Origin: Rhodospirillales bacterium
GTDB lineage: Bacteria; Pseudomonadota; Alphaproteobacteria; Rhodospirillales; JASLLZ01
Direction of reading: 5' to 3'
DNA: 32,865 nucleotides
Assembly (NCBI GenBank): GCA_030754885.1
Contig: JASLZL010000110.1
Span: 1 to 32,865, forward strand
The translations under genes and the position numbers were made by a program. Positions 7,097 to 26,538 of this stretch are shown here, one piece after another. A model generated the notes under the pieces. It had not been told where the DNA came from. It searched no databases and worked only from the letters and a program-made list of their open reading frames with translations. The number at the start of each line of letters is the position of its first letter. The first letter of the stretch is position 1.

Positions 7097-8311
7097 ATGA
7101 GTGGTGCCTTGGAAGACATCAGGGTTTTCGACCTGTCGCGCATTCTGGCCGGACCCGCCTGTACGCAGATTCTGGGCGATCTGGGGGCCGAGGTGATCAA
7201 GGTCGAACGTCCCGGCGTCGGCGACGACACCCGCAAATGGGGACCGCCCTACCTCAAGGACGCCGACGGTCGCGAAACCACGGAAAGCGCCTATTACCTG
7301 GCCATCAACCGCAACAAGCGCTCAATCACGCTCGATATCACCAAGCCCGAGGGCCAGGAACTGGCACTGCGCCTGATTGAGCATTGCGACGTCTTGATTG
7401 AAAACTTCAAGGTCGGCGACCTGGCGCGCCGCGGCCTCGGCTATGAGCAGCTTCGAGAGCGCTTTCCGCGCCTAATCTATTGTTCGATCACAGGCTTTGG
7501 GCAAACCGGACCTTACAAGGATCGTCCCGGCTACGACTACATGGCCCAAGCCATGGGCGGCATCATGAGCGTCACCGGAGATGCCGATGGCTCGCCGATG
7601 AAGGTCGGTGTCGGCATCGCCGACATCATGACCGGCATGTACGCAACATCGGCAATCCTGGCCGCGATCCACCATCGCACGGTCACCGGCAAGGGCCAGT
7701 ATATCGACATGGCGCTCCTCGATTCCCAAGTCGCGTGGTTGTCATCGAGCGGGCAGAACTACCTGACCAGCCGCGAGCCCGTACCCCGGTTCGGCAACGC
7801 CCATCCCAACATTGTCCCCTATCAGGTCTTTCCCTCGGCCGACGGCCACGTCGTCATCGCCGCCGGCAACGACGCGCAATTCCGCCGCCTGTGCGACTTC
7901 GCCAACCTACCCGAGCTGGCCGACGACGAACGTTTCGCCACCAATGCGGCCCGGATACGCAACCGCGATGCACTGATCCCCCTCATCGAAGACGCCGTTG
8001 TCCGTCATCCGTCGGCCCATTGGCTGGAAGGATTGGAAGGGGTCAAGGTACCGGCCTGTCCCATCAACACCATCGCCCAAGTCTTCGCCGACCCCCAAGT
8101 CCGCCACCGGGGCATGGAGATCGCGCTGACCCACCCAGAGAGCGCGGCCGCCACCCCCTTGATCGCCAGCCCGATCAAGATGTCGGACACGCCGCCCGAA
8201 TACCGCCGCGCGCCGCCGACCCTGGGCCAGCACACCGATGAGGTGCTGGGCGAAATGCTGGGCCTCGGGGCCGACGAAGTGGCTGCCCTTAGAGACGACG
8301 GCGTGGTGTGA
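7097..8311 (+). CDS. CaiB/BaiF family CoA-transferase (paralogue A)
   Basis: 404 aa: MSGALEDIRVFDLSRILAGPACTQILGDLGAEVIKVERPGVGDDTRKWGPPYL...; strongly similar to 15739..16953. Confidence 0.92.
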   Translation: MSGALEDIRVFDLSRILAGPACTQILGDLGAEVIKVERPGVGDDTRKWGPPYLKDADGRETTESAYYLAINRNKRSITLDITKPEGQELALRLIEHCDVLIENFKVGDLARRGLGYEQLRERFPRLIYCSITGFGQTGPYKDRPGYDYMAQAMGGIMSVTGDADGSPMKVGVGIADIMTGMYATSAILAAIHHRTVTGKGQYIDMALLDSQVAWLSSSGQNYLTSREPVPRFGNAHPNIVPYQVFPSADGHVVIAAGNDAQFRRLCDFANLPELADDERFATNAARIRNRDALIPLIEDAVVRHPSAHWLEGLEGVKVPACPINTIAQVFADPQVRHRGMEIALTHPESAAATPLIASPIKMSDTPPEYRRAPPTLGQHTDEVLGEMLGLGADEVAALRDDGVV

Positions 8312-8324
8312 GAGGGAGAGAACC

Positions 8325-9809
8325 GTGACCGACAAGGGCTATTACGACATCATCATCCGGGGCGCCACGGTCATCGATGGCTCGGGCGCTCCGGGAAGCC
8401 TCGCTGACGTCGCCGTGTCGGACGGGCGCATCGCCGACGTGGGCGAACTTTCCGGCCTTTCGGCCACCCGCGAGATCGAGGCCGGGGGCCTGGTCGTGGC
8501 GCCCGGTTTCATCGATTCCCACACCCACGACGACCGGCTATTGCTTTCCGATCCGACCATGGCGCCCAAGGCGAGCCAAGGCGTGACCACGGTGGTCGCC
8601 GGCAACTGCGGTATCTCGCTCGCGCCGCTCCGCGCCAAGGGCACACCGCCGCCGCCCCTTAATTTGCTTGGCGGCGAGGACTGGTACCGCTTCGGCTCCT
8701 TCGCCGACTATCTCGACCATGTCGACGCCAACCCCGCCGCCGTCAACGCCCTCTTCCTGGTCGGCCACATGACCCTTCGGGTCGGGGCCATGGACACCTT
8801 GGATCGCGGCGCCAGCGACCGCGAGATCGCAGCCATGCGCGAAAGGCTTGCCGAGGCCCTGGACGCCGGGGCGGCGGGGCTGAGCACGGGTCTCGCCTAT
8901 GACCCCTCGCGCGCCGCCCCGACCGAAGAAGTCATCGCACTCGCCGAACTACTCGGCCCGGCGGGCGGCATCTATGCCACCCATATGCGCAACGAGAGCG
9001 ACGCTGTCACCGAGTCGGTGGAAGAAACCCTCAAGATCGGCCGGTGCGCCGGGGCGCGGGTGGTGATCTCGCACCACAAGGTGATGGGCCGGCGCAATTG
9101 GGGCATGACCCGCCAGACCCTGGCGCGTATCGAGGAGGCGCGTGCCGGGCAACCGGTGGCCCTCGACGTCTACCCCTACGTTGCCTCGTCGACGGTGCTG
9201 AACCCGCGCACCGCAGCTAGTGCGACGCGCACCGTCGTGCTGAGTTCCGGGGCACGGCCCGACCTCGCCGGCCTTGATCTCGACGAATGCGCCCACCGCC
9301 TTGGCTGCACCGAAGCGAAGGCCATCGAGCGCCTGCAACCGGCGGTCGGGCTCTACTTTTCGATGGACGAAGACGACGTTAAGCGCGTCCTCGCCTACCC
9401 CGGCACCATGATCGGCTCCGACGGCCTGCCCCACACCGATATGCCGCACCCACGCCTGTGGGGCACCTTCCCCCGTGTCCTCGGCCACTATTGCCGTGAG
9501 CTCGGCCTGATAACCTTGGAAGACGCGGTGCACCGCATGACCGGCCTCGCGGCCCGCGAATACGGCCTATCCAAGCGCGGCCTGGTGCGGCCGGGCTACC
9601 ACGCCGACCTGGTCATCTTCGATCCCAAAACCGTCGCCGACCGCGCCACCTTCGAAGACCCCATCCAACCCGCCGCCGGCATCGAGACGGTGCTGGTGGC
9701 CGGCATCCCCGTGTGGGAAGGCGGCCAACCGACCGGCGAACGCCCCGGACGGGCGCTGAGGCGGGGGGAGTTGCGCCCTTGCGGGGCGGCCGCGCCGGGG
9801 CGGGATTAA
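8325..9809 (+). CDS. N-acyl-D-amino-acid deacylase/D-aminoacylase-like amidohydrolase
   Basis: GTG start 8325 behind GAGAGGGAGAG; DIIIRGATVIDGSGAPGSLADVAVSDGRI...VVAPGFIDSHTHDDRLL...TTVVAGNCGISLAPL...GSDGLPHTDMPHPRLWGTFPRVLG: amidohydrolase metal-site and D-aminoacylase signatures. Confidence 0.88.
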   Translation: MTDKGYYDIIIRGATVIDGSGAPGSLADVAVSDGRIADVGELSGLSATREIEAGGLVVAPGFIDSHTHDDRLLLSDPTMAPKASQGVTTVVAGNCGISLAPLRAKGTPPPPLNLLGGEDWYRFGSFADYLDHVDANPAAVNALFLVGHMTLRVGAMDTLDRGASDREIAAMRERLAEALDAGAAGLSTGLAYDPSRAAPTEEVIALAELLGPAGGIYATHMRNESDAVTESVEETLKIGRCAGARVVISHHKVMGRRNWGMTRQTLARIEEARAGQPVALDVYPYVASSTVLNPRTAASATRTVVLSSGARPDLAGLDLDECAHRLGCTEAKAIERLQPAVGLYFSMDEDDVKRVLAYPGTMIGSDGLPHTDMPHPRLWGTFPRVLGHYCRELGLITLEDAVHRMTGLAAREYGLSKRGLVRPGYHADLVIFDPKTVADRATFEDPIQPAAGIETVLVAGIPVWEGGQPTGERPGRALRRGELRPCGAAAPGRD

Positions 9810-9813
9810 TAGA

Positions 9814-9832
9814 TATACTGTCCCCGGAATTC
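9814..9832 (+). repeat. Left terminal inverted repeat
   Basis: TATACTGTCCCCGGAATTC, directly read. Confidence 0.85.
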
Positions 9833-9861
9833 TGTCCGGAATTCCCATCTAGAGTTCCCGT

Positions 9862-9867
9862 TATAAT
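9862..9867 (+). promoter_or_regulatory. Candidate -10 hexamer (TATAAT) inside element
   Basis: Exact TATAAT in ...GAGTTCCCGTTATAATGTTTAT...; no convincing -35 recognised. Confidence 0.35.
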
Positions 9868-9948
9868 GTTTATATTTGCGCCTTTTATCAATTCACAATT
9901 GCAACCTATTCGCAAATATGTTCCTGTATTCGGTGCCTGGGAGGAACC

Positions 9949-10038
9949 ATGGTCATGGATTTGGAAACTATCTGGGGAGTATTGGGTAAGACCACTTTTA
10001 TCAGGGAGGTTCGTTATGGCAGAACAGGGTACATTTAG
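9949..10038 (+). CDS. Possible 29-aa small ORF overlapping the start of the 103-aa ORF
   Basis: GGGAGGAACC-ATG; translation MVMDLETIWGVLGKTTFIREVRYGRTGYI*; good Shine-Dalgarno spacing. Confidence 0.4.
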   Translation: MVMDLETIWGVLGKTTFIREVRYGRTGYI

Positions 10039-10327
10039 GACGACAAGAAATTGCAGATCTGGAAAACGGGACGTCATCGTAGATCGATCAGCCAAGAGAC
10101 CCCGGCGGCCAGTTGTCTACCGCGTTAGTTTCAAGGAAGCGGAAGTGGACGCAAGCCCGGTGCTTCAGGTCCACGCATTCGGCGTACCCGCGAATCCAAA
10201 AAAAGTTTCTAATTACGAGTTGAATCCGGGAAATTCTGTCGACGTGGTTGCTTGGAAGATCGAAATCTACATGGATTCGATAAAAGATAAAGCTGCGATT
10301 ATTGGGACATATGAAGTGGTTTCTTGA
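10016..10327 (+). CDS. Orphan 103-aa hypothetical protein, cargo of TIR element
   Basis: ATG 10016 preceded by AGGGAGGTTCGTT; MAEQGTFRTTRNCRSGKRDVIVDRSAKRPRRPVVYRVSFKEAEVDASPVLQVHAFGVPANPKKVSNYELNPGNSVDVVAWKIEIYMDSIKDKAAIIGTYEVVS*. No family recognised. Confidence 0.6.
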   Translation: MAEQGTFRTTRNCRSGKRDVIVDRSAKRPRRPVVYRVSFKEAEVDASPVLQVHAFGVPANPKKVSNYELNPGNSVDVVAWKIEIYMDSIKDKAAIIGTYEVVS

Positions 10328-10345
10328 ATTTCCGGGGACAATGTA
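10326..10345 (-). repeat. Internal degenerate copy of the terminal repeat
   Basis: GAATTTCCGGGGACAATGTAT; inverse ATACATTGTCCCCGGAAATTC resembles left TIR ATATACTGTCCCCGGAATTC; overlaps the ORF stop codon. Confidence 0.6.
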
Positions 10346-10374
10346 TGAATTTCACGATGGAGGAATTCTCGGGG

Positions 10375-10393
10375 GAATTCAGGGGACAGTATA
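10375..10393 (-). repeat. Right terminal inverted repeat
   Basis: GAATTCAGGGGACAGTATA, inverse of left TIR with 1 mismatch. Confidence 0.85.
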
Positions 10394-10474: not shown

Positions 10475-11239
10475 CTAGCGTCCGGCGTTGACCCTTAGGT
10501 GCTCGCCCGTGATGGCGCTGGCGGTGTCGCTGGCCAGAAACAATGCCGTCTCGGCGATATCGCGCGTTTCGATCCTCTTGCGCAGTGCCGAGGACCGCAC
10601 GAAGGTCTTGTCGAAATACTCATCGACGGAACGCCCTTCCGCCCGTGCCAGGTCGCCAGCAATGACGTCGATCAAACCGGTGCCGGCGACGGCGCCCGGA
10701 CAGATGGCGTTGCACCGGATGCCATGGGCGCCGACCTCAAAGGCCACCGATTCGGTGATGCCGATGACGGCGAACTTGCTGGCGCAATAGGCGTTGCGCA
10801 GCGGCCCTCCCTTCAGTCCCGAGCCCGAGGACAGATTAATGATTGCGCCGCCCTGGCGCTTCATCAGCGCCACCGCGTGCTTGATACAGAGGACCACGCC
10901 GCGCACGTTGACGGCCATGGTCTCGTCCCAGACCGCCATGTCCTCGTTCTCGACGCTGACCGTGGGGCCGGGAACGCCGGCGTTGTTAACCAAGATATCG
11001 AGCCGCCCGTGGGCCTCGTCGCAGGATTTGAAAAGCGCCGCCACTTGGGCCTCGTCGGCGACATCGGTGACGACGGCCAGACCACCGATGTCTTTGGCCA
11101 CGCGCTCGGCCGCGTTCCGCTGGCGGTCGGCGACCACGACCCGGCAGCCTTCTTCGGCGTAGAGCCTGGCAATCGCCTCGCCGATGCCAGCGCCGGCGCC
11201 GGTGACGACGGCGACCTTGCCGTCGAGCTTTCCAGCCAT
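10475..11239 (-). CDS. Short-chain dehydrogenase/reductase (SDR)
   Basis: MAGKLDGKVAVVTGAGAGIGEAIARLYAEEG...ILVNNAGVPGP...INLSSGSGLKGGPLRNAYCASK: TGxxxGIG, NNAG, S/YxxxK motifs; start ATG 11239. Confidence 0.92.
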   Translation of the reverse strand: MAGKLDGKVAVVTGAGAGIGEAIARLYAEEGCRVVVADRQRNAAERVAKDIGGLAVVTDVADEAQVAALFKSCDEAHGRLDILVNNAGVPGPTVSVENEDMAVWDETMAVNVRGVVLCIKHAVALMKRQGGAIINLSSGSGLKGGPLRNAYCASKFAVIGITESVAFEVGAHGIRCNAICPGAVAGTGLIDVIAGDLARAEGRSVDEYFDKTFVRSSALRKRIETRDIAETALFLASDTASAITGEHLRVNAGR

Positions 11240-11358
11240 GCTCCCATTCCTCCTTCTTGACCGATGTTCCGGGAACACCATAGCAATTTCACCGGCGAGT
11301 CCGGTGGTCGCTCATCTTGGTTCGGAATGACGGATTGGGCGTCCCACGCAGGCGCGTC

Positions 11359-13047
11359 CTACTTCCCCTTCCCGGCCAGCGCCTGTTCGCGGATGGCGCT
11401 CAACGTCGTGCGGGTGGTGATGGCTTCGGGATCGATGCGCAGTTCCAGGACCGCGATGCGACCGGCGTTGAGCGCCCGGTCCAAGGCGGGGGCGAACTCA
11501 TCGGTTTCCTCCACTACCTCGCCGAAGGCTCCAAAGCTCTCAGCATATTGGGCGAAGTCGGGATTGGTCAGGTCGGTGGCGATGGTGCGGCCCGGGTAGT
11601 GGCGCTCCTGGTGCATGCGGATGGTGCCGTACATATTGTTGTTGATGACCAAGATAACCGGCGCAATGCCGTAGTGGATGGCGGTTGAAAGCTCTTGGCC
11701 GGTCATCATGAAGCCGCCGTCGCCGACAAAACAGATCACCGGGCGGTCGGGTGCCGTCGCCTTGGCACCAATGGCCGCCGGCACGCCGTAGCCCATGGCG
11801 CCGCAGGTCGGGCCGAGCTGGCTGCGATAGCGGGAGTAGCGATAGAAACGATGCCCCCAGCCGGCGAAATTACCGCCGTCGGTAACGATGAGTGCGTCCG
11901 GCCCCAACCGTTCCTGCACAAGGGAAACAACCTTCGCCATGTCGAGCTTATTGGGTACGAAATCGGGCTTGAGCCACTCCACATAGTCCTGGCGCGCCGC
12001 CTTTGCCCAATCGCCCCAGGCCGTTGAGTCGACCGGTTCCAGCGCCTTCGCGGCCTCCGCAAACTGTGCCATGCCCGATGCCATGGGAAGATCCGCCTGA
12101 TAGACGCGGTTCAATTCGTTTGATGTGGCGTGGATGTGGATGATGGTTTGCTGCGGGCGCGGCGGCGCCGGCAGCGTATAACCCTGGGTCGTCATCTCGC
12201 CCAATCTGGCACCCACCACTAACAAGAGGTCGGCGCCATGGATACGGTCAGCCAGAGCCGGATTGATACCGATGGCAACGTCGCCCATGTAGTTGGCATG
12301 ATTGTTGTCGAACAGGTCCTGACAGCGAAACGATGCGCCGGTGGGGATGTTGTTGGCCTCGGCAAAGGCGACGATGTCGCGTGACGCCTCGGCGCTCCAA
12401 CCGCCGCCACCGACAATCATGAGCGGGCGTTTCGCCGCCGCCAACAGGCGGCGCATTTCGTCCAACTGCCCCGGTGACGGGGCCGCGCGGATCACCTGAT
12501 AGGGCCCCGTGTCGGCAACATCGCATTCCTCGCGCAGCATGTCTTCGGGGAGCGCCAGGACGACCGGGCCGGGGCGGCCGGAAACCGCCAAATGGAAAGC
12601 GCGGCTCAGGTATTCGGGGATGCGCTCAGGACTCTCGATCTGGGCCACCCATTTGGACATCTCGCCAAAGACGCGGCGATAGTCCATCTCCTGAAACGCC
12701 TCGCGGTCCTGCTGATCGCGCGCCACCTGGCCGATGAGCAAAACCATCGGCGTTGAATCCTGAAAGGCGGTGTGGGCCGCGATGCTGCCATTGCAGGCGC
12801 CGGGACCGCGGGTAACGAAGCACACCCCTGGATTTCCGGTGAGCTTGCCGTGAGCTTCGGCCATGAAGCCGGCGCCGCTTTCGTGGCGGCAACTGATCAG
12901 ACGGATGGAGTCGCTGACATCGTAAAAGGCGTCGAGCGCGGCGAGATAACTCTCGCCGGGGACACCAAACACCGTGTCCACCCCATGGACGCCAAGGGCA
13001 TCGACCAAAATACGGCCGCCGGTTCGCAAATTAGAACTCTTCGACAT
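11359..13047 (-). CDS. Thiamine diphosphate-dependent enzyme (acetolactate synthase-like family)
   Basis: 562 aa; RHESGAGFMAEAHGKLTGNPGVCFVTRGPGACNG and GDGGFMMTGQELSTAIHYGIAPVILVINNNMYG (ThDP motif). Confidence 0.9.
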   Translation of the reverse strand: MSKSSNLRTGGRILVDALGVHGVDTVFGVPGESYLAALDAFYDVSDSIRLISCRHESGAGFMAEAHGKLTGNPGVCFVTRGPGACNGSIAAHTAFQDSTPMVLLIGQVARDQQDREAFQEMDYRRVFGEMSKWVAQIESPERIPEYLSRAFHLAVSGRPGPVVLALPEDMLREECDVADTGPYQVIRAAPSPGQLDEMRRLLAAAKRPLMIVGGGGWSAEASRDIVAFAEANNIPTGASFRCQDLFDNNHANYMGDVAIGINPALADRIHGADLLLVVGARLGEMTTQGYTLPAPPRPQQTIIHIHATSNELNRVYQADLPMASGMAQFAEAAKALEPVDSTAWGDWAKAARQDYVEWLKPDFVPNKLDMAKVVSLVQERLGPDALIVTDGGNFAGWGHRFYRYSRYRSQLGPTCGAMGYGVPAAIGAKATAPDRPVICFVGDGGFMMTGQELSTAIHYGIAPVILVINNNMYGTIRMHQERHYPGRTIATDLTNPDFAQYAESFGAFGEVVEETDEFAPALDRALNAGRIAVLELRIDPEAITTRTTLSAIREQALAGKGK

Positions 13048-15591: not shown

Positions 15592-15738
15592 ACCCCTATC
15601 CCCTCTCGTCCTGCCCCAAGGGAGTCCTAAGCGTCCCGGGCACTTCGGGCAAGAGCCTAAGAGGATGGCCGCCGAACGTGGGCCTTGATATGGTGCCCCA
15701 CCTTCGGCCCAAGCGATAGCTATGACAGGAATAGAATC

Positions 15739-16953
15739 ATGGACGGCGCACTTGCCGGCATCCGCGTCTTTGACATGACCCGCGTTCTCGCCGGGCCCGC
15801 CTGCACGCAGATTCTGGGCGACCTGGGGGCCGAAGTGATCAAGGTCGAACGCCCAGGTGTCGGCGACGATACGCGCAAGTGGGGACCGCCGTACCTCAAG
15901 GATAAGGACGGCCGCGATACCACGGAAAGCGCCTACTACCTGGCGGTCAACCGCAACAAGCGTTCCATCACACTCGACATCACCAAGCCCGAGGGCCAGG
16001 AACTGGCGCTGCGCCTGATTGAGCATTGCGACGTCTTGATTGAGAATTTCAAGGTCGGTGACCTGGCGCGCCGCGGCCTCGGCTATGACCAGCTTCGCGA
16101 GCGCTTTCCGCGCCTTATCTATTGTTCGATTACCGGCTTTGGGCAAACCGGGCCTTACAAGGAGCGTCCCGGCTATGACTATTTAGCACAGGCCATGGGC
16201 GGCATCATGAGCGTCACCGGCGAGCCCGACGGCCGGCCGATGAAGGTGGGTGTCGCCATCGCCGACGTCATGACCGGTATGTACGCAACGACGGCGATAT
16301 TGGCGGCCCTGCGCCACCGCGATGCGACCGGCGCCGGGCAGCATATCGACATGGCGCTCCTGGACAGCCAACTGGCCTGGCTGGCCAATGTCGGCCAGGG
16401 CTATCTGGTCAGTGGCGAGGAGCCGCCCAGGCTCGGTAACGACCATCCCACCGTAGTTCCCTATGGGGTGTTCGGTGCAGCGGATGGTCCCTTTGTTCTA
16501 GGCGTCGGGAACGACTCGCAGTTCCAGCGTTTTTGCGCCTTCGCCGAGATGCCCCAACTGGCCGAAGAGCAAAAATTCGCTACCAACACGTCCCGGGTGC
16601 GCAACCGAGATTCCCTGATCCCCCTCATCGAGGCCGCCATTGCCCGCCATCCGATGCGTTATTGGATCGAGGGATTGGAAAAGGTCAACGTGCCAGCGTC
16701 GCCCATCAACACCGTGGCCCAGGCCTTCGCCGATCCCCAGGCCAAGCACCGGGGCATGGTGAAAGAGATTGGCCACCCCCTGTCCGAGAAGCCGCTACGC
16801 ATGACAGCCAATCCCATCCACATGAGCCAGACGCCGGTGGAATATCGCCACGCACCGCCGACGCTCGGCCAGGATACCGAAAGGGTGCTGGCCGACGTCT
16901 TGAACATAGGCGGCGCCGAGATTACGGAACTGCGTAAGCGCGGGATCGTCTAA
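15739..16953 (+). CDS. CaiB/BaiF family CoA-transferase (paralogue B)
   Basis: 404 aa: MDGALAGIRVFDMTRVLAGPACTQILGDLGAEVIKVERPGVGDDTRKWGPPYL... Confidence 0.92.
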   Translation: MDGALAGIRVFDMTRVLAGPACTQILGDLGAEVIKVERPGVGDDTRKWGPPYLKDKDGRDTTESAYYLAVNRNKRSITLDITKPEGQELALRLIEHCDVLIENFKVGDLARRGLGYDQLRERFPRLIYCSITGFGQTGPYKERPGYDYLAQAMGGIMSVTGEPDGRPMKVGVAIADVMTGMYATTAILAALRHRDATGAGQHIDMALLDSQLAWLANVGQGYLVSGEEPPRLGNDHPTVVPYGVFGAADGPFVLGVGNDSQFQRFCAFAEMPQLAEEQKFATNTSRVRNRDSLIPLIEAAIARHPMRYWIEGLEKVNVPASPINTVAQAFADPQAKHRGMVKEIGHPLSEKPLRMTANPIHMSQTPVEYRHAPPTLGQDTERVLADVLNIGGAEITELRKRGIV

Positions 16954-24770: not shown

Positions 24771-25032
24771 GCCCGATGCGGGATCCGCTACCAATTGGCA
24801 ATCCTACGTCTGCACTGCCAGCCGAGTTGGCGAACTTATACGATTGGCGAACCCTGTCAATCACGTCCCGGGACGTGCGCGCATTCTCTATGGACTTCAC
24901 GACCCAGAAAACTAAACTGCATCAAGCTTGATCGAAATTAATTGGGGGGGGCGATCTCCCAAATCACGCCCAGAAGTCCTGGACGGCCGCCTCGGCGGCT
25001 TATGCCAACATTACGAAACGGAAGGAAAAACT

Positions 25033-25761
25033 ATGCCTGTTTTCAAAGGGGGCCGAACCATCTATGGCGAAGCCATCGGAATTTTGTTGCTCGACACCGC
25101 ATTCCCGCGGCTCCCAGGCGACATTGGCAACGCATCGACCTTCGATTTCCCGGTGCGCTATAGCGTCGTGAGGGGAGCGACGGCTCAGCAGATCGTCCTC
25201 GAAAATGACGAATCGTCGATCACCGGCTTTGTCGCCGCGGCCAAGGAACTGGCCGACGACGGGGTACGCGCCATCACGACCAGTTGCGGCTACCTCACGA
25301 CCTACCAAGACGCCATTACCGAAGCGGTGGGCGTTCCGGTGTTCTGCTCAAGCCTGATGCAGGTCCCCATGGTCTCGAAAATGCTGCCCCCGGGCAAGAA
25401 GGTCGGCATCCTGACCATCCATTCCAAGCGTCTTGAAGAACGGACGCTACAGGCCGCCGGGATTACCGACGAGCCGATCGCCATCATGGGTTCCGAAGAC
25501 GTGCCGGAGTTCTATAACACCTACCCCCGCGGAGCCATGGAGATCGACCCCGATGTGGTCGGCGGCGCCGTCGTCGGCATGGTGCAAAAGCTGCTCGAGG
25601 AAAACCCCGAGGTCGGCGCCATCGTCTGCGAGGCCATCAACTATGCGCCCTACGCCTACGCCGTCCAACAGGCGACCGGCCTGCCGTGGTTCGACATCAT
25701 CGACCTGACCAAGCTGGTCTACGGCGCCGTCGTCAAACAGCCCTACACCGGCTTCCTATGA
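25033..25761 (+). CDS. Asp/Glu/hydantoin racemase superfamily protein (paralogue 1)
   Basis: Start ATG 25033 (MPVFKGGRTIYGEAIGILLLDTAFPRLPGDIGNASTFDFPV...); TTSCGYL and GAIVCEAIN cysteine motifs. Confidence 0.85.
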   Translation: MPVFKGGRTIYGEAIGILLLDTAFPRLPGDIGNASTFDFPVRYSVVRGATAQQIVLENDESSITGFVAAAKELADDGVRAITTSCGYLTTYQDAITEAVGVPVFCSSLMQVPMVSKMLPPGKKVGILTIHSKRLEERTLQAAGITDEPIAIMGSEDVPEFYNTYPRGAMEIDPDVVGGAVVGMVQKLLEENPEVGAIVCEAINYAPYAYAVQQATGLPWFDIIDLTKLVYGAVVKQPYTGFL

Positions 25762-25809
25762 GTTAGACCGGCCGCCTCGGCGCGCCCGTCAATAAAGGAG
25801 AATAAGCCA

Positions 25810-26538
25810 ATGACGGTCTATCACGGAGGCCGGACCATTTATGGCGAGGCCATCGGGATTCTGTTGCTGGAAACCCAGTTCCCCCGCATGCCGGGTGATA
25901 TCGGCAATGCCTCGACATTTGACTTTCCGGTCAACATCAAGGTGGTCAAGGGGGCGACGGTCCAAAAAATCATCATGGACGGCGACGATTCGTCCCTCAA
26001 CGACTTCATCGGCACGGCCCGCGAATTGGAGGCCGATGGCGTCAGGGCCATCACCACCAGTTGCGGATACCTCACCACCATCCAGCAGCCGCTTATCGAG
26101 GCTCTCAAGATCCCGGTATTCTGCTCCGGCCTCATGTTGGTGCCCATGGTGGCGCGTATGATGCCGATGGGCCGGAAGGTGGCAATCTTGACCCTCGATT
26201 CAAGCAAGCTCACCAAGCATCACCTGGAACTGGCCGGCATTGCCGACGAGGGCTTGGTGTTCATCGGCGCCGAAACGGTGCCCGAGTTCTATAACAACTG
26301 CGTCAAGAACGTCCTGGAATACGACCCCGCCGACGTCGAGCGCGGCGTCGTCGGTCTGGTCAAGAAACACGTGACCGAGAACCCCGACATCGGCGCCATC
26401 GTCTGCGAAGGGGTCAACTTCGCGCCCTATGGCGGCGGCGTCCAGGAGGCCACCGGATTGCCGTGGTTCGATATCGTCGATCTGACCAACATGGTCTACG
26501 CGGCGGTGGTCAAGCGGCGCCACACGGGCTTTGTGTGA
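25810..26538 (+). CDS. Asp/Glu/hydantoin racemase superfamily protein (paralogue 2)
   Basis: MTVYHGGRTIYGEAIGILLLETQFPRMPGDIGNASTFDFPV...; ITTSCGYLTT and GAIVCEGVN; AAAGGAGAATAAGCCA-ATG. Confidence 0.85.
   Translation: MTVYHGGRTIYGEAIGILLLETQFPRMPGDIGNASTFDFPVNIKVVKGATVQKIIMDGDDSSLNDFIGTARELEADGVRAITTSCGYLTTIQQPLIEALKIPVFCSGLMLVPMVARMMPMGRKVAILTLDSSKLTKHHLELAGIADEGLVFIGAETVPEFYNNCVKNVLEYDPADVERGVVGLVKKHVTENPDIGAIVCEGVNFAPYGGGVQEATGLPWFDIVDLTNMVYAAVVKRRHTGFV

Follow-up and report, generated by a model that had tools for sequence, protein, structure and literature searches.

The closest described relatives of the segment analyzed here are the TIRtrons and the TIRYT genes (Di Nocera et al. 2013, PMC3733652). 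TIRYT repeats are the terminal repeats of RAYT-like Y1 transposases and their published motif is GGGGWSAS (PMC3733652); the group was later equated with TnpAREP subclass 2.1 (PMC6006769). REPINs and BIMEs are likewise linked to RAYTs and are thought to be moved in trans (PMC3116915, PMC2817692). MITEs with passenger ORFs, IS200/IS605 elements that lack tnpA, and integron cassettes offer more distant comparisons.

The window, by which we mean the whole 32,865-nucleotide stretch that was analyzed (contig JASLZL010000110.1 of the Rhodospirillales bacterium assembly GCA_030754885.1), contains at positions 9814-10393 a 580-bp unit of foreign-looking DNA in which one gene lies between two inverted copies of a repeat. 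The motif GGGGWSAS is common to this unit and to the TIRtrons (PMC3733652, PMC6006769), as are inverted copies at the two ends and the existence of related copies that occur singly, in doublets and in clusters. The unit differs from a TIRtron in having no Y1 gene between its repeats, the place being taken by an unrelated, AT-rich orphan gene, in having outward-facing repeats whose outer edge reads TATA, and in residing in a genome (94.7% complete) where no cognate Y1 enzyme was found. Its anatomy supports the description of a gene unit that lacks a transposase but has RAYT-type ends. With REPINs and BIMEs it shares dispersed intergenic repeats that are tied to RAYT-type enzymes. REPINs, however, are short gene-free doublets, whereas here the copies lie about 500 bp apart with an ORF between them; there is no GTAG tag, and 516 nt separate the arms, with no single-hairpin REP pair. 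Like MITEs with passenger ORFs and IS200/IS605 elements without tnpA, the unit would be non-autonomous, with inverted or structured ends and an enzyme supplied from elsewhere; unlike MITEs, it is present in a single copy, its cargo is unrelated to that of other units and its ends belong to the TIRYT family. The comparison with integron cassettes concerned the layout: these too carry single orphan or toxin-antitoxin genes, and in a related genome (G092:C105) palindromic repeat doublets separate several consecutive units, but the repeat is a different one. A literature search, with most subscription papers outside its reach, found no description of such units.

The unit and its cargo gene

An initial annotation of this DNA had described a 580-bp segment bounded by inverted repeats, AT-richer than its neighbors, that begins 4 bp past the D-aminoacylase stop codon and fills the gap between two convergent genes. 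The coordinates and the starting point proved correct. The sequences TATACTGTCCCCGGAATTC (9814-9832) and GAATTCAGGGGACAGTATA (10375-10393) pair in inverted orientation at 18 of 19 positions, and the extended arms (9814-9845 and 10362-10393) at 26 of 32. The GC content of the interior is 0.457, compared with 0.65-0.71 in the flanking genes (about 66% outside). The neighbors are indeed convergent, but 81 bp lie between the end of the right repeat and the stop codon of the SDR gene, so that the unit stops just short of filling the intergenic gap. The description of the ends had also overlooked two further copies, a degenerate one on the right and a partial one on the left (Table 1). When the local 800 bp were shuffled, an exact 12-bp inverted pair at least 300 bp apart arose in 25 of 3000 shuffles, a figure that leaves out of account that this same 12-mer is a repeat family. 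No direct target duplication was found flanking the unit; to our knowledge, Y1 elements make none. The interior of the unit has no second copy in its own genome. Elsewhere in the window there are two family III CoA-transferase genes (7097-8311 and 15685-16953), 80% identical over 1 kb, and two racemase-like genes (24928-26538), 71% identical.

Table 1. Features of the unit and of the genes on either side of it (window coordinates).
Feature	Position	Strand	Basis or remark
D-aminoacylase-like amidohydrolase, left neighbor	8325..9809	+	91% identical in the congener G001
Left repeat, TIRYT-type, reading GAATTCCGGGGACAGTATA on the minus strand	9814..9832	-	
Partial second left copy, CTGTCCGGAATTCCC	9832..9846	-	
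Shine-Dalgarno-like AGGGAGG	10003..10009	+	read directly
Orphan cargo gene, 103 aa, predicted all-beta (8 strands)	10016..10327	+	
Degenerate right repeat, core TTCCGGGGACAATGTA, immediately 3' of the ORF stop	10328..10346	+	
Right repeat region, GGAATTCTCGGGGGAATTCAGGGGACAGTATA	10362..10393	+	
SDR-family dehydrogenase, right neighbor, convergent	10475..11281	-	

The cargo had been described as a well-formed gene of no recognizable family, and both points held. Homologues of the 103-aa protein at E <= 0.001 were absent from 399 genomes of the phylum and 318 of the order, and weaker matches in the latter reached at most 20 bits, which is the level of noise. Plasmids contained no relative and phages nothing credible, the PDB yielded no relative of a 153-aa version of the protein, and Rfam contained nothing credible. 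The models of Pfam, NCBIfam, PHROGs and PADLOC did not match the ORF, and the suggestion that the cargo is a defense or toxin gene found no support in these four collections. The Pfam search detected no Y1 (PF01797) similarity in the ORF, in keeping with the annotation of the unit as lacking a transposase. The sole match in a collection of genome contigs, from Ketobacter, was dismissed as due to chance; it is a short segment that spans the spacer of divergent speA- and speE-like genes and runs into a stop soon after.

The 153-aa version begins at an in-frame ATG at 9866, and in shuffled sequence a whole frame of 153 codons stays open with p = 0.0015-0.0035. AlphaFold2, given the single 103-aa sequence without an alignment, predicts an all-beta protein of eight strands (pLDDT 74, pTM 0.66). 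The extra 50 residues of the longer version are predicted with very low confidence, and for this reason the 103-aa start was favored and the 153-aa reading set aside. A fold search returned generic beta-sandwich and cupin-like matches alone, with TM scores of at most about 0.6. The length of the open frame, the good Shine-Dalgarno sequence and the fold predicted from a single sequence suggest that the ORF probably encodes a real protein.

The repeat family and Y1 transposases

The 12-mer GGGGACAGTATA occurs exactly at four places in the 3.1-Mb genome, namely at both ends of the unit and in spacers on C64 and C109. A relaxed pattern adds one more copy, on C129. In 1.82 Mb of this genome that were read directly there was no further copy with at least 17 of the 23 consensus bases, and the eight copies with 16 of 23 are what chance would give. 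Because the repeat is so rare in this genome, two copies 568 bp apart are unlikely to be independent of one another. Across the order, 29 of 318 genomes contain the exact 12-mer, with up to 44 copies per genome (0-3 for a reversed control pattern), and many of these copies form close doublets. The sequence GGGGACAG, found in both ends of the unit, fits GGGGWSAS (PMC3733652), also given as GGGG[AT][CG]A[CG] (PMC6006769). The initial annotation had likened the repeats to those near Y1 transposases of the RAYT type; the motif and the Y1 neighbors found in relatives both bear this out.

Y1 genes adjoin the repeat in four genomes of the same order and class, G431, G011, G035 and G471 (in G471 recognized by sequence motifs alone). 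The Y1 gene of G431 has a single repeat copy on each side, oriented opposite to those of the window unit, and elsewhere the Y1 genes lie between mixed doublets. Since the direction of the repeats around Y1 genes is inconstant (L011, L012), we place little weight on it. Y1 transposases beside this repeat, which the annotation had suggested looking for, exist in these relatives, but none was detected in the window's own genome or in the congener G001. This absence is one point against the earlier proposal of mobilization in trans, and the window unit is probably immobile in its present host.

These Y1 loci raise the question of whether the unit might be a decayed autonomous Y1 element, whose transposase gene gave way to, or eroded into, the ORF seen today. 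The sharing of a repeat family with Y1 loci is in favor of such an origin. Against it, the ORF has no Y1 similarity and an all-beta prediction, the interior (GC 0.46) is poorer in GC than the Y1 gene of G431 (0.54, within a genome stretch of 0.48), and the G431 repeats are oriented the other way around their Y1 gene. We consider this origin highly improbable. The related idea that cargo units in general are deletion derivatives of Y1 elements was also disfavored, with little weight given to the argument from direction.

Several other repeats were noted in the course of these comparisons. On C109 of the same genome (L002, G000:C109:15071-18082), a second palindrome, AGGGGCTGTCCCAGATAACC...GGTTATCTGGGACAGCCCCT, which contains GGGACAG, lies at 1415-1465 beside copies of GGGGACAGTATA and is possibly a second repeat family of like kind. 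An unrelated repeat of about 80 bp (L044, G001:C127, 1515-1600) has many copies in the window's genome, with matches at L188, L182, L235, L277, L223 and others. In the congener, a tandem array of CTGTCCCCGGAATTCCC (L038, G001:C135:26800-28910, at 1380-1640 and 1940-1990) is situated inside the duplicated 3' end of a thiamine-diphosphate enzyme gene, the orthologue of window positions 11359-13047, and the contig ends shortly after. Its tandem copies resemble the partial left copy of the window unit.

Units of the same layout in related genomes

A search of the window's genome and of its relatives showed that the repeats are not confined to this locus. About ten loci, distributed over five genera, show the layout of a left repeat, an AT-rich gene and an inverted right repeat, and their cargo genes are unrelated. 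Besides the window unit these are C129 of the same genome, G001:C190, G569:C4, G065:C158, G065:C10, G092:C56 and G108:C79, C102 and C128; all of them combine a left repeat, one or more genes that are mostly AT-rich and an inverted right repeat, which at C129 is degenerate. At C129 the left repeat begins about 30 bp past the stop codon of a racemase gene and is followed by 0.75 kb at 52% GC (flanks 65%), by a right repeat matching 15 of 23 bases (p about 0.03) and then by a convergent gene. Its cargo is a membrane-anchored orphan ORF (L133, 1116-1664) with an in-frame TAA after codon 51. The unit of the congener at C190 has 53% GC (flanks 66-68%) and a 169-aa orphan, lipoprotein-like ORF followed by right repeats, and that of G569:C4 has a 260-aa orphan and, like the window unit, two right copies. 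The three G108 units have 36-38% GC in a background of 54-56% and are bounded by clusters that comprise as many as eleven left copies and nine right copies. Across all units the cargo mostly has no Pfam family, and otherwise includes PIN, MazF-like, ImmA/IrrE-like, FRG and Rpn-like proteins. Three successive genes of G092:C105 are separated by repeat doublets with a constant spacing of 48 nt.

Two of the G108 loci have cargo worth noting. At C79 (L126, 2410-4758) three AT-rich genes, encoding a divergent sodium:solute symporter-like protein and two orphans, lie between eleven left and two right repeats. At C102 (L127, 2334-4607) an AT-rich gene for a 757-aa protein precedes nine direct right repeats; the N-terminal part of this protein is NTPase-like, a C-terminal stretch matches the Recombinase domain, and it might be an unrecognized defense gene.

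Like units are present in some genomes and absent from their close relatives, and the clearest example comes from the genus of the window. The 837-bp unit of G001:C190 is absent from the corresponding place in the window's own genome (C92), where flanks that are 89% and 81% identical to those of the congener are joined by 29 bp. The difference begins 3 bp past the stop codon of a shared zincin-like gene; the gene and both repeats are missing together, and no recognizable repeat remains in the join. In G568, relative to G569:C4, the cargo and the left repeat are absent and homology resumes at the right repeat, within a different copy of the flank. G065 and G069 have one gene in common, and from about 3 nt past its stop codon they differ, with repeats and then different genes, which are orphans in one genome and a HicAB-like pair in the second. 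In the empty-site pairs 12-95 bp outside the repeats also differ, and the borders are not base-precise. For the window unit itself, the congener continues for 178 bp past the D-aminoacylase gene with unrelated sequence that contains no such repeat or ORF, and because its contig ends there, a clean empty site is not available.

These data bear on two alternatives to movement of the unit as a whole. The repeats may have been deposited singly in intergenic spacers, as REPs are, with the orphan gene arriving by ordinary transfer and each of its two spacers gaining a repeat later; accessory regions would then simply collect more of them. Cargo-free single and tandem copies do occur, at C64 and C109 of the same genome and at L041 and L066, and the REPs described in the literature favor gene 3' ends as well as convergent spacers (PMC3733652). 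Neighboring copies 280-4500 bp apart form 17 outward, 4 inward and 15 same-direction pairs, but much of this raw outward excess (17 vs 4) arises because the repeats often come as doublets; in gaps without doublets the excess is about 9 vs 1-2, as classified by eye. Gaps between same-direction copies also contain AT-rich genes, so that the repeats mark the borders of accessory genes in general, and this, like the alternation of doublets and genes in G092:C105, is compatible with single deposition. On the other hand, when 3.1 Mb contain no more than about four repeat loci, a pair of inverted copies 568 bp apart is unlikely to have arrived independently; such units account for two of these four loci, and at C92 the gene and both repeats are absent jointly. 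Single deposition, with accessory regions accumulating repeats, is to our minds a serious rival, though less likely than not.

Alternatively, recombination between repeat arrays may exchange the segments next to them, so that the repeats would mark variable borders with no transposase active now. The array of the congener within a tandem duplication of a gene end is consistent with this, as are the resumption of homology between G569 and G568 at the right repeat, to the left of which their sequences differ, and the failure to find a Y1 gene in the genus (the window's genome and its only congener). However, such short, diverged repeats (about 20-30 bp) offer little substrate for RecA-type recombination, and the 29-bp join at C92 has no recognizable residual repeat. 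We regard recombination as an unlikely account.

A candidate carrier of single genes

That the window contains a transposase-less gene unit of a kind subject to presence and absence is well supported, by the anatomy of the unit and by the behavior of like units between close relatives. The unit was probably acquired horizontally. Our preferred reading, to which we assign roughly even chances, is that the segment is a small gene carrier, an AT-rich orphan gene between outward-facing TIRYT-type copies of GGGGACAGTATA, moved in trans by a Y1 enzyme. We infer that such a Y1 (HUH) enzyme would act on the repeats in single-stranded form. Y1 enzymes of the TIRYT group would cleave and rejoin DNA single strands where the repeats form structures, and a gene caught between two of these could be moved once the enzyme was supplied from elsewhere. 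Insertion behind the stop codons of host genes would do the least harm. The window unit itself is likely to be a resident that remains from past traffic, or to have been acquired with its ends through recombination.

A broader proposal, which we put forward tentatively and think doubtful as a whole, is that TIRYT repeats are the ends of a widespread system of single-gene carriers, in which Y1 enzymes would move orphan and toxin-antitoxin genes in trans. The units would be placed just past stop codons and sometimes stacked in rows, resembling integron cassettes in effect although the mechanism would be unrelated. RAYT-like Y1 enzymes are common and conserved, and their benefit to the host has long been puzzling. 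If their repeats bound exchangeable single-gene units, these enzymes would have a testable role in the spreading of genes, and orphan and toxin-antitoxin genes would have a simple route by which to spread. At a minimum, the repeat provides a handle for delimiting foreign genes in many uncultured bacteria.
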